NCBI GenBank assembly: GCA_030697825.1
Contig: JAUYOW010000331.1
Span: forward strand, 1-46,801
Source: Gemmatimonadales bacterium
Lineage (GTDB): Bacteria > Gemmatimonadota > Gemmatimonadetes > Gemmatimonadales > JACORV01
DNA: 46,801 nt
Reading direction: 5' to 3'
The position numbers and the translations under genes are program-made. Shown piece after piece: positions 37,964 through 46,786 of the stretch (the first letter of the stretch is position 1; every line of letters begins with the position of its first letter). The notes beneath the pieces were generated by a model. That model had not been told where the DNA came from. It worked only from the letters and a program-made list of their open reading frames with translations, and ran no database searches.

Positions 37964-38919
37964 ACAACGACCTGATCGTCGAGATCGACGCCATCTCCAA
38001 GCGCTTCGGCGACTTCGTCGCCGTGGCCAGCCTGTCGCTGCGGGTGCCGAAGGGCGCGGTGTACGGCCTGCTGGGCCCCAACGGCGCCGGGAAGACCACC
38101 AGCATCCGGATGCTGATGAACATCACGATCCCCGACCAAGGGACCGTGAAGCTCTTCGGCGACGATCTGGGCGGCCGGCACCACAGCGCGCGCATCGGCT
38201 ACCTGCCCGAGGAGCGCGGGCTGTACCGCAAGATGAAGGTGCGCGACACGCTGGTCTTCCTCGCGGAGGCTAAGGGTGTGGCGCGCGCGGCGGCCGGCCG
38301 CAAGGCCGACGAGTGGCTCGACCGCCTGGGCCTCGGCGAGTGGCGGCTGCGGAAGGTGGAGGAGTTGTCCAAGGGCATGCAGCAGAAGGTGCAGTTCATC
38401 GCCACGATGCTGCACGAGCCGGAGCTCCTGATCCTCGACGAGCCGTTCTCGGGCCTCGACCCGATCAACCAGGACGTGCTCAAGGAGATCATCGTGGACC
38501 TCTCGCGAAAGGGGACGACGATCATCTTCTCGACCCACCAGATGGACGTGGCCGAGAAGATCTGCGACCACGTCTGCATCGTGGCGCGCGGGCGGAAGGT
38601 GCTTGACGGCACGCTGTCGGAGGTGAAGCACGTGCACGGCGGGACGCACGTGGCGGTGGCCTTCGAGGACGGAGCCGACACCGCCGCGGCGCTGGCCGGC
38701 GTCAGTGGTCTGGTAGCGAAGGCGGACGACTACGGCGTCTACGCGGAGCTGGCGCTCAGGGACGGAGTGGACCCGCAGGCGCTGCTCGAGCAGCTGATGC
38801 GCTCGGGCGCGAGACTGCGCCGGTTCGAGCGGGTCGAGCCTTCCCTGCACCGCATCTTCCTCGACAAGGCGGGTCCCGACGCCGCTGCTGAGTCCCAGCA
38901 GGAGCCGGCCCATGCGTAA
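37960..38919 (+). CDS. ABC-2-type exporter ATP-binding protein (NatA-like)
   Basis: 319 residues. Walker A is GLLGPNGAGKTTSIRML, the signature is LSKGMQQKVQF, Walker B is LLILDEPFSGLDP, and the H-loop is IFSTHQMDV. The C-terminal 80 residues form the usual extra domain of drug or sodium exporter ATPases. It pairs with the membrane gene that starts within its last 8 bp. Substrate unknown. The start overlaps the DJ-1 stop as ATGA. Confidence 0.92.
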   Translation: MNNDLIVEIDAISKRFGDFVAVASLSLRVPKGAVYGLLGPNGAGKTTSIRMLMNITIPDQGTVKLFGDDLGGRHHSARIGYLPEERGLYRKMKVRDTLVFLAEAKGVARAAAGRKADEWLDRLGLGEWRLRKVEELSKGMQQKVQFIATMLHEPELLILDEPFSGLDPINQDVLKEIIVDLSRKGTTIIFSTHQMDVAEKICDHVCIVARGRKVLDGTLSEVKHVHGGTHVAVAFEDGADTAAALAGVSGLVAKADDYGVYAELALRDGVDPQALLEQLMRSGARLRRFERVEPSLHRIFLDKAGPDAAAESQQEPAHA

Positions 38920-40186
38920 GGTCTGGGCGGTGATCCGGCGCGAGTTCGTCGAGAAGGTGCGCAACAAGTGGTTCCTGATCTCGACGCTCCTGGGGCCGGT
39001 GTTCATCATCGCGATGTTTGTGCTGCCCAGTCTGCTGGCGACCAAGACGGGCCGAGTGAACGACATCGTGATCGTCAATGAGGGGAGCGGGCCGTTCGCG
39101 GAGCGGGTGCGGACGCAGCTGGTGGCGAGCGGCCGGTTCCTGGTCACCATCCTGCCGGTCGAGGCGGACCGGTACACCGCGGTGGCCGACTCGCTGACGG
39201 CGGAAGCGCGGCGCCAGGCGCTCGACGGGTTCCTGACGCTCACGGCGGCGACGATGGAAGCGGGCACGGCCGAGTACCGCGGCCGCAACGTCTCGTCGTT
39301 GCGGGACATGAGCGTCCTGGAACGCGTGATCCGGCAGACGTTGGTGGTGGAGCGGCTCACCCGGCGCGGCATCGATCCGGCGATCGTGCAGGAGGCCCAG
39401 GGTCGGGTGGACTTCAAGACGCTGCGGATCAGCCGGCGCGGCACCACCGGGGCGTCGAGTGAGGTGACCTTCTTCCTCGGCTACTTCGTGGGGCTCATCC
39501 TCTACATGATCATCCTGATTTACGGGATGGGGGTGATGCGCAGCGTGCTGGAGGAGAAGCAGACCCGCATCATCGAGGTTCTGGTTTCGAGCCTCCGGCC
39601 CTTCGAGCTGATGCTCGGCAAGGTGATCGGCGTGGGGGGTGTGGGACTCTTCCAGTTCTCGATCTGGGGCGCGGTCGGCTACTTGATGGCGCACTTCCGC
39701 CGGCAGATCCTTGGCTTCTTCCACGTCTCGGCGGAGGCGGCGAACGCGGTCCAGATGCCGGAGGTGAGCGGCGGCCTTCTGCTGGTGATCGGGGTGTACT
39801 TCCTCCTCGGCTATCTCCTTTATTCGGCGCTGTTTGCGGTGGTCGGGGCGTCGGTGAACACCGACTCGGAGGCGCAGCAGGCCCAGCAGCCGGTGATGAT
39901 GCTCCTGGTCTTTTCTCTCATCATCTCGTTCGCGGCGATGACCGATCCCGACGGCCAGCTGGCGGTGGTGGCCTCGCTGGTCCCGCTGAGCGCACCCATC
40001 ATCATGCCGGTTCGGGTGGCGACGTCGGACGTCCCGCTGCGCCAGCTCGCCTTGTCCCTGGCTATTATGGCGGCCACCGCCGTCGCGGTGGTGTGGGGCG
40101 CGGCCCGGGTCTACCGGATCGGGATACTCATGTATGGGAAACGGCCCAGCCTGAAGGAGTTGTGGCGCTGGGCGAGGCAGAGTTGA
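38912..40186 (+). CDS. ABC-2-type permease (NatB-like)
   Basis: 424 residues. A first helix follows the N-terminus (WFLISTLLGPVFIIAMFVL), then a large soluble loop (about 45-185) and five to six helices (FFLGYFVGLILYMIILIYGM, LLLVIGVYFLLGYLLYSALF, MMLLVFSLIISFAAMT). The motif VMRSVLEEKQTRIIEVLVSS is the conserved cytoplasmic coupling helix of ABC-2/NatB permeases. Together with the upstream ATPase it forms an exporter of unknown substrate. Confidence 0.92.
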   Translation: MRKVWAVIRREFVEKVRNKWFLISTLLGPVFIIAMFVLPSLLATKTGRVNDIVIVNEGSGPFAERVRTQLVASGRFLVTILPVEADRYTAVADSLTAEARRQALDGFLTLTAATMEAGTAEYRGRNVSSLRDMSVLERVIRQTLVVERLTRRGIDPAIVQEAQGRVDFKTLRISRRGTTGASSEVTFFLGYFVGLILYMIILIYGMGVMRSVLEEKQTRIIEVLVSSLRPFELMLGKVIGVGGVGLFQFSIWGAVGYLMAHFRRQILGFFHVSAEAANAVQMPEVSGGLLLVIGVYFLLGYLLYSALFAVVGASVNTDSEAQQAQQPVMMLLVFSLIISFAAMTDPDGQLAVVASLVPLSAPIIMPVRVATSDVPLRQLALSLAIMAATAVAVVWGAARVYRIGILMYGKRPSLKELWRWARQS

Positions 40187-40201
40187 TGGACACGAAAAAA
40201 G

Positions 40202-40237
40202 GCGAGTAAGGGGAGTAAGGGGAGTAAGGGGAGTGAG
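40202..40237 (+). repeat. 9-bp minisatellite, four units of GGGAGTRAG
   Basis: Units are GCGAGTAAG, GGGAGTAAG, GGGAGTAAG and GGGAGTGAG. They follow the permease stop after 15 bp and precede the first parS-like site by 9 bp. Confidence 0.85.
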
Positions 40238-40246
40238 GCTGGTAAG

Positions 40247-40262
40247 GGTTTCACGTGCAACA
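40247..40262 (+). promoter_or_regulatory. parS-like ParB-binding site 1
   Basis: GGTTTCACGTGCAACA matches the 16-bp bacterial parS consensus TGTTTCACGTGAAACA at 14 of 16 positions, with the central CACGTG intact. It lies 104 bp upstream of parA, between the two inverted minisatellite arrays. Confidence 0.8.
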
Positions 40263-40282
40263 CCCGCTTCGCCGCGCAACCC

Positions 40283-40309
40283 CTCCCCTGACTCCCCTGA
40301 CTCCCCTGT
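40283..40309 (-). repeat. Inverted copy of the 9-bp minisatellite, three units
   Basis: On the plus strand the units are CTCCCCTGA, CTCCCCTGA and CTCCCCTGT; reverse-complemented, the unit is GGGAGTCAG, one base different from the array at 40202. The two arrays could pair across the first parS-like site. Confidence 0.8.
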
Positions 40310-40331
40310 TTTCTTCTCCACCCACCCTATC

Positions 40332-40347
40332 TGTTCCACGTGCAACA
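40332..40347 (+). promoter_or_regulatory. parS-like ParB-binding site 2
   Basis: TGTTCCACGTGCAACA matches the parS consensus at 14 of 16 positions and shares CACGTGCAACACC with site 1. It ends 18 bp before the parA ATG, where bound ParB could affect parA expression. TAGATT, a possible -10, follows at 40351-40356. Confidence 0.85.
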
Positions 40348-40365
40348 CCATAGATTCTCCGCCCC

Positions 40366-41193
40366 ATGGGCCGCGTGATCGCCATTGCCAACCAGAAAGG
40401 CGGCGTCGGAAAAACGACGTCGGCCGTGAACCTCGCCGCCTCGCTCGCCGCGGCGGAGAAGCGCACGCTGCTCGTGGACGCCGACCCCCAGGCCAACGCG
40501 ACCAGCGGCGTGGGGCTCGAGCGGGATGGCCTCAGGCTCACCGTTTACGAAGTCATGATCGACGGCCGGCCCCTCAACGACGTCATCCGGCGCGGGGTCC
40601 ACTTCCCTCGCCTGGACGTGGCTCCCGCCTCCCGAGACCTGGTCGGTGCCGAAGTCGAACTCGTCTCACGCTCCCACCGGGAGTCGATCATGCGCCGCGC
40701 CCTCGAAAGCGTGCGCACCAACTACGACTACATCCTCATCGATTGCCCGCCGTCACTCGGCATGCTCACGCTGAACATGCTGTCCGCCGCGGATGCGGTT
40801 CTCATCCCCATCCAATGCGAGTACTACGCCCTGGAGGGGCTGTCCCAGCTCCTCAACACTGTGCGCCTCGTGCAGCGTAACTTCAATCCACGGCTCGCGA
40901 TCGACGGGGTGTTGCTGACCATGTACGACGCCCGGCTCAACCTGTCCAAGCAGGTGGCCGACGAGGCGAAGGAGTACTTCGGGGTCCGCATGTTCAACAC
41001 CGTCATCCCCCGGAACGTCCGCCTGGCCGAGGCCCCCAGCTTCGGAAAGCCCATTCTGCTGTACGACATCGGGTCGATAGGCGCTCAGACCTATCTCAGT
41101 GTGGCAGAAGAACTTATCCGCCGTACCGCCAACCGGACCCCGGCCGAGACGCGCGAGGCTACGCTGCTTCCGACCATCGAGGCGATGCCGTGA
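40366..41193 (+). CDS. parA: Chromosome-partitioning ATPase ParA (Soj-like)
   Basis: 275 residues. The deviant Walker A is [17 protein letters not shown], Walker A' is [14 protein letters not shown], and Walker B is [16 protein letters not shown]. It has no N-terminal DNA-binding extension, as in chromosomal ParA. It forms ATP-dependent gradients on the nucleoid that move ParB-parS complexes. ATG 40366 has no Shine-Dalgarno and lies 9 bp after TAGATT, so the leader may be only a few bases. Its stop overlaps parB (GTGA). Confidence 0.97.
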
Positions 41194-42080
41194 GCGGCAC
41201 GGCCGGCAACAAGCGTCGCCTGGGTCGCGGTCTCGAGGCCCTGCTCGGCGTTTCGACGGTCGAGGACGCGGAGCGCGACGGCTCGCTGCGCCAACTCTCC
41301 GTGGGCGAGATCAAGCCCAATCGGTTCCAGCCCCGCCGGGCCTTCGACGCCGAGGCGCTCAAGGAGCTCAAGCAGTCCATCGCCGCGACCGGTCTCATCC
41401 AGCCCATCGTCGTCCGCCAGACCGGAGACGGGTACGAGCTGGTGATTGGCGAGCGGCGTTGGCGTGCGGTCAGGGAGCTCGGGTGGAAGCGGATCCCGGC
41501 GGTCGTGCGTGAGGTGGACGAGCGGACACTGCTCACGCTCGCGCTGGTGGAGAACCTGCAGCGCGCTTCCCTCTCCCCCATCGACGAGGCGGAAGGCTAC
41601 CAGCGGCTCGCGCGCGAGTTCAGCCTGTCGCACGGGGAGATCGCTCAGGCGGTCGGGCGTGACCGGTCCACTGTGGCGAACGCCGTCCGCCTGCTCAAGC
41701 TTCCGCAGAGCGTGCAGCAACTGCTCGACGCCGGCGAGCTCACCGCGGGCCACGCGCGCGCCCTGCTCTCGCTCGAAGACCACCGCGAGATGTCGCGACT
41801 CGCGCGCGAGTGCGTGGCACACGGGTGGTCGGTGCGCGAGATGGAGCGGCAGTCGCGCACCGATTCGACCCCGCGCAAGAGCCGCGACGGCAGGAAGGCT
41901 CGACGGCAGGTCCCGACCGAGGTACGCCGGATCGAAGCGGCGTTGCGCAAGAAGCTCGGCACCGATGTCCGCGTCGTGCTGAGCGGCAAGGCCAAGGGCC
42001 ACCTGGCCATCCGTTTCTATTCGGATGAAGACCTCGGCCGGCTGCTCGAGTTGATCCTCGCCCGGCGCTGGGACGGCTGA
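41190..42080 (+). CDS. parB: Chromosome-partitioning CTPase ParB
   Basis: 296 residues. The N-terminus [13 protein letters not shown] is the ParA-stimulating peptide. The CTP-binding parts are [21 protein letters not shown] and [12 protein letters not shown], with [20 protein letters not shown] next. The helix-turn-helix region [20 protein letters not shown] recognises parS. The C-terminus is a short dimerisation domain. GTG 41190 is coupled to parA. Its stop overlaps the M23 gene start (TGATG). Confidence 0.97.
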
Positions 42081-43422: not shown

Positions 43423-43439
43423 CGTATCAACCGAAGGTT

Positions 43440-43467
43440 CAACATTGTGCGCGACGCGACCAACATT
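43440..43467. repeat. CAACATT words upstream of the BMP gene
   Basis: CAACATT occurs at 43440-43446 and 43461-43467, 21 bp apart (two helical turns). An inverted copy AATGTTG is at 43501-43507, and CAACATA at 43526-43532; the latter two are part of the perfect inverted repeat. The cluster looks like an operator region in the 89-bp gap after bactofilin. Confidence 0.5.
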
Positions 43468-43501
43468 CGTCTGTTAACTATTTGTGTAGCACCATGATGG
43501 A

Positions 43502-43531
43502 ATGTTGACTCGTGGACAAACGAGTCAACAT
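43502..43531. promoter_or_regulatory. Perfect 12-bp inverted repeat across the BMP gene start codon
   Basis: ATGTTGACTCGT (43502-43513) and ACGAGTCAACAT (43520-43531) are perfect reverse complements with a 6-base GGACAA loop. GTG 43512 overlaps the end of the left arm. As RNA it would be a stable hairpin holding the start codon; as DNA it would suit a dimeric repressor. Confidence 0.85.
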
Positions 43532-44531
43532 AGTGTCATGTCGTTCACTGTTCGCTGTCGTGTCACTGCTCGTTCTAGGGTGCTCCAAGACGCGTAGCGA
43601 TTCCTTCAAGGTCGCCCTCCTCACCCCCGGTCCCATTTCGGACGCCGCCTGGAACGCCGCCGCCTACGAAGGCTTGGTTCGCATCCGAGACTCGCTGGGG
43701 GCGGAGATCAGCCATGTGGAGACGAAAACTCCGGCTGAGTTCGACGAGGCGTTCCGCGACTATGCGTCCCGCGGTTATCGGCTGGTGTTCGGTCACGGCT
43801 TCGAGTTCCAGGACGCGGCTGCCCGGGTCGGTGCGGATTACCCGAACACGATCTTCATCACCACGTCCGGCTCGACCGTCCGACCCAACGTCTCGCCTAT
43901 GGTGTTCCGGCTCGAGGAGGGGACGTACCTCGCCGGCATGCTTGCCGGATCGCTCACGCGGAGCGGCCGGCTAGGGTTCATAGGGGGGATCAAGCTCCCG
44001 CCGGTCGAAGGCACCTACCTCGGGTTCGTCGCTGGGGCGCGTGCCGTGCGCCCCGCCGTCACGGTCCTCCAGGCGTACCTCGGCAACTTCGAGGACGTAG
44101 CGGCGGCCAAGGAGAACGCGCTGGCGCAGATCCGCCGCGGCGCCGACATCATCCTGCACAACGCCGACGCGGCGTCCTTCGGCATCTTCCAGGCGGCACG
44201 CGAGTCGCCGGGAGTGCTGGCGCTCGGCGCCAACCGGGACCAGAATGACGTGGCGCCGGACGTGATAATCGCCTCGGCGACGCTCGACGTGCCGCAAGCC
44301 CTCCTGCTGGTGGCGCGCGAGGTGCGGGACGGGCGGTTCCGTCCCGGCGTGCGCTACTTCGGCATCAAGGATGGCGTAGTGGACCTGGCGGTAAACCCCG
44401 CGCTGAGCGGCCGAGTGACGCCGGAGCTGCGCGCCCGCATCGCCGCAGCCCGCGACTCGATCGTGGCGGGTACGCTAGCCGTCCCACGGGTCGAGTTCGT
44501 GCCGGATTCGGTTCCGGTGGTCGTGCGCTGA
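43512..44531 (+). CDS. BMP/PnrA-family substrate-binding lipoprotein
   Basis: 339 residues. The lipoprotein signal is basic MDKRVNIVSCR, hydrophobic SLFAVVSLLVLGC, with lipid-linked C24. The rest is the periplasmic-binding fold of basic membrane/PnrA proteins: FKVALLTPGPISDAAWNAAA, YRLVFGHGFEF, EGTYLAGMLAGSL, LGFIGGIKLPPVE. Family members bind purine nucleosides and deliver them to an ABC importer. GTG 43512 lies inside the hairpin; GTG 43533 is an in-frame alternative just beyond it and also gives a normal signal peptide. Nif3 and ABC ATPase genes follow with 1-bp gaps. Confidence 0.9.
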   Translation: MDKRVNIVSCRSLFAVVSLLVLGCSKTRSDSFKVALLTPGPISDAAWNAAAYEGLVRIRDSLGAEISHVETKTPAEFDEAFRDYASRGYRLVFGHGFEFQDAAARVGADYPNTIFITTSGSTVRPNVSPMVFRLEEGTYLAGMLAGSLTRSGRLGFIGGIKLPPVEGTYLGFVAGARAVRPAVTVLQAYLGNFEDVAAAKENALAQIRRGADIILHNADAASFGIFQAARESPGVLALGANRDQNDVAPDVIIASATLDVPQALLLVAREVRDGRFRPGVRYFGIKDGVVDLAVNPALSGRVTPELRARIAAARDSIVAGTLAVPRVEFVPDSVPVVVR

Positions 44532-45286: not shown

Positions 45287-46786
45287 GTGACGGAGCGGGA
45301 GGAGGCCGTGCGCATGCGCGGCATCTCGCGGCGGTTCGGCTCCGTGCAGGCGTTGCGCGGGGCCGATTTTTCTGGTGCTGCCGGCGAGATCCACGCGCTG
45401 CTGGGAGAGAACGGCGCGGGCAAGAGCACGCTGATGCACATCCTGTTCGGGCTGGTGCCGGCGGACGCGGGGACGGTGGAAGTCGCCGGCCGGGCGGCAC
45501 GGTTCCGTTCGCCCGCTGATGCGATGGCGGCCGGCCTGGGAATGGTGCACCAGCACTTCACCCAGGTGCCGGCGATGACGGTAGCCGAGAACGTCTGGCT
45601 CGGCCGGCGCGGCCTGCGTTACGATCGCGAGGCGGCGAGCGCCTTGGTGCGACGGGTCTCGCAGGCGACGGGCCTCGCGATCGACCCCGACGCTACCGCC
45701 GGCGATCTTCCGGTCGGACTTCGCCAGCGCCTCGAGATAGTCAAGGCGCTCGCGCGTGAGGTGCGGGTCCTCATCCTCGACGAACCCACCGCCGCGCTCG
45801 CTCCGGGTGAGATCGCGGAACTCTTCGGCGCGCTGAGACGCCTCGCTGACTCCGGCGTCGCCGTTGTGCTCATCACTCACAAGCTTCGCGAAGTGGCGGC
45901 GATAGCCGACCGGGTGACGGTGCTTCGGCGCGGCGAGACGGTCGTGTCGGGAGAGGAGGCGGGCCGTCGGGACGCCGCAGCTCTGGCACGCGCCATGATC
46001 GGTGAGAGTGCCGCGCAGCGTGAGATGGAGGAGGCGATGAAAGAGGTGAGAGAGGTGAGAGAGGGGAGTGAGGGGAGTGAGGGGAGAGAGCGGGGGGAGG
46101 GGTTGGCGCTGGAGGTGAGAAATCTCTGCGTTGGGAGTTCGGGCGGGCGTAGGGTCGTGGATGGTGTTTCGTTCGGCGTGGCGCGGGGTGAGATCGTCGG
46201 GATCGCGGCGGTGGAGGGGAACGGGCAGCGCGAGCTGATGCGGGCAGTGGCGGGGCTCGTGCCACGCGAAGGCGCTCTGACGATCGGTGGTTCCGGCACC
46301 ATCGGTTTCGTGCCGGAGGATAGGCAGGGAGAGGCGCTCATCCTCGAATTCAGCGTGGCGGAGAACCTGGCGCTGGGCGGAGCGGGCGGGTGGTGGGTGG
46401 ACCGGGCGCGGGACCTGGCGGCGGCCGACGAGGCGATCGGGGCATTCGACATCCAGGGCCTCGCGGGTGGACGGGTGCGAACGCTTTCGGGCGGGAACCA
46501 GCAGAAGGTAGTGCTCGCCCGAGAACTGTCACGCCGGCCGGCACTCCTCGTGGCGGAGAACCCGACGCGCGGTCTGGACGTACGCGCCACGGCAGAAGTG
46601 CACGCGCGCATCCTCAGGGCGGCGCGGCAGGAAGGGGCCGGCGTGCTCTTTCATTCCACCGACCTGGACGAAGTGCTCGCGCTTGCCGATCGGGTCGCCG
46701 TGATGGTGGAGGGACGCTGGATCGAGCTTCCGCGTACCGCCACTCGCGAAGAGGTAGGCGCGCGGATGCTGGGTAGCGCGGCGTGA
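45287..46786 (+). CDS. Two-domain ABC ATPase of a BMP/nucleoside importer
   Basis: 499 residues with two nucleotide-binding domains. First: Walker A LLGENGAGKSTLMH, a modified signature LPVGLRQRLEIVKAL and Walker B VLILDEPTAALAP. Second: a degenerate Walker A (AAVEGNGQRELM), signature LSGGNQQKVVLAREL and LLVAENPTRGLD. This asymmetry is typical of RbsA/BMP-type importers, where only one site hydrolyses ATP. The linker (about 253-272) is encoded by the 9-bp minisatellite and reads EVREVREGSEGSEGRERGEG. The stop overlaps the next start (GTGA). Confidence 0.93.
   Translation: MTEREEAVRMRGISRRFGSVQALRGADFSGAAGEIHALLGENGAGKSTLMHILFGLVPADAGTVEVAGRAARFRSPADAMAAGLGMVHQHFTQVPAMTVAENVWLGRRGLRYDREAASALVRRVSQATGLAIDPDATAGDLPVGLRQRLEIVKALAREVRVLILDEPTAALAPGEIAELFGALRRLADSGVAVVLITHKLREVAAIADRVTVLRRGETVVSGEEAGRRDAAALARAMIGESAAQREMEEAMKEVREVREGSEGSEGRERGEGLALEVRNLCVGSSGGRRVVDGVSFGVARGEIVGIAAVEGNGQRELMRAVAGLVPREGALTIGGSGTIGFVPEDRQGEALILEFSVAENLALGGAGGWWVDRARDLAAADEAIGAFDIQGLAGGRVRTLSGGNQQKVVLARELSRRPALLVAENPTRGLDVRATAEVHARILRAARQEGAGVLFHSTDLDEVLALADRVAVMVEGRWIELPRTATREEVGARMLGSAA
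46043..46096 (+). repeat. In-frame 9-bp minisatellite in the ABC ATPase linker
   Basis: Units are GAGGTGAGA, GAGGTGAGA, GAGGGGAGT, GAGGGGAGT and GAGGGGAGA, then a degenerate GAGCGGGGG. They lie in codon phase and encode EVR, EVR, EGS, EGS, EGR. Rotated, GAGGGGAGT is GGGAGTGAG, identical to the last unit of the array before the first parS-like site. Confidence 0.85.

Follow-up and report, generated by a model that had tools for sequence, protein, structure and literature searches.

Inverted tandem arrays around a predicted parS site in a Gemmatimonadales bacterium are probably the arms of a gene-end hairpin

In the window (the whole stretch of 46,801 nucleotides of a Gemmatimonadales genome analysed here), the gap before parA holds two sites like parS, a DNA mark with a part in chromosome sorting; the first of them, parS1, lies in the loop of an inverted repeat that takes in two inverted arrays of 9-bp units. 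We lean, with somewhat better than even confidence, toward the view that the two arrays are the arms of a terminator or insulator hairpin at the gene end of the upstream ABC operon, with parS1 in the loop incidentally; the pairing of arrays and parS is probably a by-product of gene-end punctuation, not a new parS device. On the same reading, held with the same modest confidence, parS1 and parS2 are best taken as ordinary predicted ParB sites.

Results

The gap and its flanking genes are laid out as follows.

38912..40186 (+): ABC-2 type permease gene (Pfam ABC2_membrane_3, E 4e-47), whose stop codon directly precedes the hairpin
40187..40224 (+): 5' arm, TGGACACGAAAAAAGGCGAGTAAGGGGAGTAAGGGGAG, with A-tract (gapless inverted-repeat search, score 20; RNA fold)
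40199..40238 (+): array A, AAGGGGAGT (GGGAGTRAG), period 9, 4.4 copies (Tandem Repeats Finder score 66)
40247..40262 (+): parS1, GGTTTCACGTGCAACA, in the hairpin loop; 14/16 to TGTTTCACGTGAAACA, kept in relatives
40283..40308 (+): array B, CTCCCCTGA (inverted GGGAGTCAG), period 9, 2.9 copies (Tandem Repeats Finder score 52, 100% match)
40283..40320 (+): 3' arm, CTCCCCTGACTCCCCTGACTCCCCTGTTTTCTTCTCCA, with T-tract (gapless inverted-repeat search)
40332..40347 (+): parS2, TGTTCCACGTGCAACA, directly 5' of the -10-like box of parA; 14/16 to TGTTTCACGTGAAACA
40351..40356 (+): TAGATT, likely -10 box of parA, found in six family members
40366..41193 (+): parA (AAA_31, E 1e-66)
41190..42080 (+): parB (ParB_N, HTH_ParB and ParB_C; TIGR00180 over cut-off)

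By their Pfam and TIGR domains, ParA (a Walker ATPase) and ParB (N-domain, HTH and C-domain), encoded side by side as in chromosomal ParABS systems, are clear members of their families, and close matches to parA were found in nearly all of the 61 genomes searched. The sequence-only reading had reported two 14/16 matches to parS, 85 bp apart and within 120 bp of parA, and both are indeed present, their starts 85 bp apart and lying 119 and 34 bp upstream of the ATG of parA (40366). Scanning the window for the site common to the two, with up to 3 mismatches, gave 4 strand matches, at both places, against 0.23 expected, and a search of the whole genome returned these two sites only. Their identity as parS is further supported by the ParB domains and by the retention of paired sites across the order.

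One or two parS-like sites lie upstream of parA in all 30 loci read (the source genome among them), and the total of exact parS cores is one to three in most genomes of the order. A parS pair upstream of parA, without arrays, is ordinary in this Gemmatimonadota order, in keeping with the earlier remark that parS near parAB is usual. The locus resembles known chromosomal ParABS in its parA-parB operon, in the paired parS close upstream and in its proximity to dnaA in relatives; it differs in that the bases beside the CACGTG core are, in this family, often G or C and not T/A (GTTGCACGTGCAAC-like), and in that parS1 lies in a hairpin loop in genus g1. Because six relatives with long contigs place parAB at a distance of 20-53 kb from dnaA, the proximity to the replication origin that the sites had been taken to suggest is likely here as well, although the source genome is fragmented and its dnaA is on another contig. 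A ParA-based scan of a genome collection returned order-level and remote relatives only, and no genome of this family. One family member listed as 100% complete (G004) lacks both a parS core and a close ParA orthologue (best E 6e-12), the result of either loss of ParABS or an assembly gap.

The TAGATT box lies 9 bases before the parA ATG, is kept within the family and leaves few or no leader bases. TANNWT boxes are enriched before gene starts in the source genome and in its nearest relative, the congener G001, with a peak at -12 to -15, a pattern that suggests that leaderless or very short-leader transcripts are common in both. Given this enrichment and the position of TAGATT next to parS2, putative ParB occupancy at parS2 would overlap the parA promoter. 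The position of parS2 is the same (-34) in the source genome, G001, G005 and G006.

That parS1 sits between inverted 9-bp arrays, as first described, was borne out by Tandem Repeats Finder, except that the second array is not identical to the first, its unit being GGGAGTCAG on its own strand; the four and three units originally counted correspond to 4.4 and 2.9, and the pairing region is longer than either array (40187-40224 with 40283-40320), the arms also taking in GAAAAAAGG opposite TGTTTTCTTC. For two GGGAGTRAG units side by side, allowing 3 mismatches at most, the window gave 8 matches where chance predicts 0.09. With regard to G-quadruplex potential, array A has only three runs of four G. 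The gapless inverted repeat leaves a loop of 58 nt with parS1 inside, and the centre of the site (40254.5) is 1 base from that of the hairpin (40253.5). The arrays had been proposed to pair into a stem or cruciform. Pairing as a single strand is supported: the hairpin folds better than shuffles whether taken as RNA (z -3.6) or as single-stranded DNA (z -3.2), and parS1 is found at the tip of the fold. A stable stem directly after the stop codon of the last gene of the ABC operon is what one would look for in an intrinsic terminator, but the loop is far longer than the short one (about 3-10 nt) of canonical examples, and a pattern scan for intrinsic terminators gave no hit at this hairpin; a U-tract would be expected directly after the stem, and TTTTCTT is present, paired with the A-tract. 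Elsewhere in the window, the gap 43423-43559 contains a perfect 12-bp inverted repeat with a 6-base loop (43502-43531; ATGTTGACTCGT/ACGAGTCAACAT), a candidate ordinary terminator.

Arrays of this kind are widespread. A 6.8-unit array of the GGGAGTRAG 9-mer at 46042-46102 runs in frame through an ABC ATPase gene (45287-46786), where on the coding strand it encodes a VREGSEGSEGRERGEG-type linker; its presence there already speaks against a feature specific to parS. A search of the source genome for two units of this 9-mer in a row gave matches at 110 places as compared to 63 for the backward control, although matches overlap within arrays, so that separate arrays are fewer, and the reversed unit is similar, which partly inflates the control. 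The 9-mer is nearly absent from relatives other than G001. In 690 kb of the source genome and 634 kb of G001, other units behave alike (GTTGCAGR, GAGCCGG, CCGCTCC, AGGCGCAC, GTGATGRG, GGTCTTAG and more), and the genus as a whole has many 7-9-bp tandem arrays of varied units that start just after stop codons and are G-rich on the coding strand. The recurrent plan is a stop codon, a G-rich array, a spacer and often an inverted array; inverted pairs of GGGAGTRAG and of other units follow stop codons without parS, and many arrays have no inverted partner. Unit families are patchily distributed across the order: the octamer recurs often in three g1 species and in one of three g2 species. A GAGCCGG heptamer array is abundant in a genome of another family of the order (G024; 63 matches, backward control 0), and is a separate expansion of a like kind of repeat.

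Hairpins with an arm score of at least 12, counted in gaps of 40-600 bp over 1.32 Mb of the source genome and G001, were found in 23/54 convergent, 48/321 co-directional and 2/78 divergent gaps (convergent versus divergent, p 6e-9; co-directional versus divergent, p 0.002), far above the roughly 4 in all seen in dinucleotide shuffles; part of this sample had been picked for array-bearing contigs, and an unpicked small subsample had hairpins in 5/36 co-directional gaps of 100-200 bp and in 10/25 of 200-600 bp. Gene calls came from a simple codon-model script whose output was compared by eye with the ORFs of the window only, so that some gap classes may be wrong (e.g., L211 4879-5222, where a downstream gene was probably missed). 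A gradient from convergent through co-directional to divergent gaps is what characterises elements tied to gene ends. The 5' arm starts at a median of 12.5 nt after the stop codon (directly after it at the parS gap), the G-rich array comes first in 19/19 inverted array pairs of the two main units, and 9-mers inside genes lie on the coding strand in 11/11 cases. T-runs lie near the 3' arm in 21% of hairpins as compared to 12% at random positions, and arm mismatches in co-directional gaps are G-U more often than A-C (28:17, p 0.135), a trend only.

The array units and hairpins turn over fast, as units differ and hairpins come and go among orthologous gaps. Among 23 such gaps compared between the source genome and G001, both species have a hairpin at 3, with the same octamer at 2 and different units at the parS gap; at several others, only one of the two has a hairpin. 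An orthologous octamer hairpin kept between convergent genes (C1:795-925 in G001, C55:30991-31117 in the source genome) has in its loop an inner palindrome like CAGGCGGCAGGGAATCCCTGCCGCCTG. At its own parS1, G001 has an octamer hairpin with 41-bp arms, 39/41 positions paired and a loop of 82 nt, and these arms are unrelated in sequence to the 9-mer arms of the source genome. The third congener (G002) has only a 10-bp inverted repeat around parS1, near shuffle level; in G005 and G006 the first parS is immediately preceded by a GC hairpin. Elsewhere in the order, no comparable hairpin was found at the parS locus, and parS is in a loop at only 1 of 27 loci.

Discussion

The concentration of hairpins at gene ends, their onset close behind the stop codon, the strict polarity and the flanking A- and T-tracts are consistent with a terminator or 3'-end barrier. 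We propose that, starting at the first base beyond the stop codon, the permease transcript would fold into a long, imperfectly paired stem composed of repeat units, which, flanked by the A-tract and U-tract, would act as a transcription terminator or 3'-end barrier and separate the ABC operon from parAB. The genus would build many such hairpins from tandem 7-9-mers whose unit sequences are quickly replaced, and parS1 would be in the loop since it was already present in the gap; parS2, abutting the predicted parA promoter, is where ParB could repress parAB. The RNA fold, the excess of T-runs by the 3' arm, the distant relatives with a parS pair and no arrays and the GC hairpins of G005 and G006 point the same way, as does the reported excess of transcript starts or stops at comparable G-rich arrays in Xanthomonas (PMC4692102). 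However, beyond the long loop and the lack of a pattern-scan hit, the T-run enrichment over all hairpins is modest, the G-U excess expected under selection on RNA is only a trend, many arrays are unpaired, and presence at orthologous gaps is not strongly conserved, unlike what one would expect of an essential terminator.

The long loop, modest T-runs and wobble trend leave room for a neutral mutational origin, in which slippage linked to transcription or replication makes the G-rich arrays, template switching inverts copies, and the hairpins have no selected function, with parS1 merely nearby. The many different units per genome, the presence/absence differences and unit swaps at orthologous gaps, and the arrays that stand unpaired or in protein linkers would all be accounted for, and the strict adherence of arrays to the coding strand, inside genes too, is suggestive of a mutational process linked to the strand. 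Such an origin does not readily explain the near-absence of hairpins from divergent gaps, which are also intergenic, the very long near-perfect arms at single loci (39/41 in G001) or the A/T-tracts flanking the arms at the parS gap, and we regard it as a serious but unlikely alternative.

The sequence-only reading had instead proposed that the arrays could form a stem or cruciform presenting parS1, or affect ParB loading and spreading, which they would do as a boundary that limits or directs both. In three congeners parS1 does lie in the loop of the strongest inverted repeat of its gap, with unrelated arm sequences, and in the source genome the centres of site and hairpin are 1 base apart. However, the corresponding offsets in the other two congeners come to 7 and 12.5 bases, giving by hand calculation a combined p of about 0.1, and the third species' arms are only 10 bp and near shuffle level, so the shared arrangement is suggestive and, given the high hairpin rate, not clearly beyond chance; the centring, considered as evidence for a parS role, was judged not significant across the three species. 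The octamer was likewise considered as a look-alike of a parS half-site (GTTGCA) and dropped, since octamers occur at tens of places without parS. ParB binds duplex parS, and cruciform extrusion would melt that duplex. Most relatives have a parS pair and no arrays. Absence of the arrays from close relatives that keep parS had been named as refuting the proposal, and here the picture is mixed: GGGAGTRAG is absent from this gap in 5/5 family members that have the locus, although the nearest, G001, has inverted arrays of a different unit in the corresponding place. Because like hairpins follow many other genes and most parS loci do without them, there is little support for a parS-specific role, and we consider a dedicated parS device improbable.

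Insertion of a miniature mobile element (MITE or REP-like) beside parS1 seems to us more improbable still. The octamer hairpins are dispersed and lineage-patchy, with common arm ends (GTTGCAGCGG...CCGCTGCAAC) and fairly uniform loops of 65-100 bases, as such elements might be, but their loops are mostly unrelated between copies, with no conserved MITE/REP core, the 9-mer inverted pairs have loops of 11-53 bases and no common core, and the arms are tandem arrays of variable length, with different units in different gaps. REP/BIME palindromes and the BrickBuilt minisatellite MITE (PMC3733652, PMC4596501) are similar in being palindromes or repeat-bearing elements scattered outside genes, for which roles near gene ends have been proposed; here we see tandem-unit stems with unrelated loops, and neither a common palindrome core nor MITE terminal repeats. 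Deinococcus secondary replicons also have tandem arrays upstream of parAB, but these are 14-18-bp iterons bound by ParB and DnaA (PMC7671480), whereas the units described here are unlike parS and spread over the genome.

The closest precedent for a gene-end hairpin built from arrays is the inverted GGGAATC arrays after stop codons in Xanthomonas, where (GGGAATC)n, like GGGGA(C/T)T in Nostoc, forms dispersed G-rich heptamer arrays, mostly within 50 bp of stop codons and on the coding strand; each Xanthomonas genome has 70-75 convergent inverted pairs, and transcript starts or stops are more frequent at arrays able to form a quadruplex than at controls (PMC4692102). Our arrays share the dispersed 6-9-bp G-rich tandem units, the proximity to stop codons, the coding-strand bias and the convergent inverted pairs. 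What is new relative to the Xanthomonas/Nostoc kind is that each genome combines several units of 7, 8 and 9 bases, not all of them quadruplex-like, that the unit differs at the same gap between sister species, that one pair encloses parS, and that the phylum is a different one; a literature search found nothing on such arrays in Gemmatimonadota.

A bolder version, which we think quite unlikely though less so than a parS device, is that the lineage uses gene-end hairpins selected for structure and free in sequence, the units arising locally, being mirrored to an inverted partner and being replaced wholesale while the position is kept; parS1 would then lie in hairpin loops with unrelated arms in three congeners because the stem serves to keep upstream transcription away from the site at which ParB nucleates.

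These findings turn a one-off parS curiosity into a testable genome-wide habit, that of building gene-end hairpins from short tandem arrays with units that differ from one sister species to the next, and the parS gap with its three congeners offers a clean test case. If the hairpins terminate transcription, they would illustrate how terminators of very GC-rich genomes can arise and turn over fast, with structure kept and sequence free.
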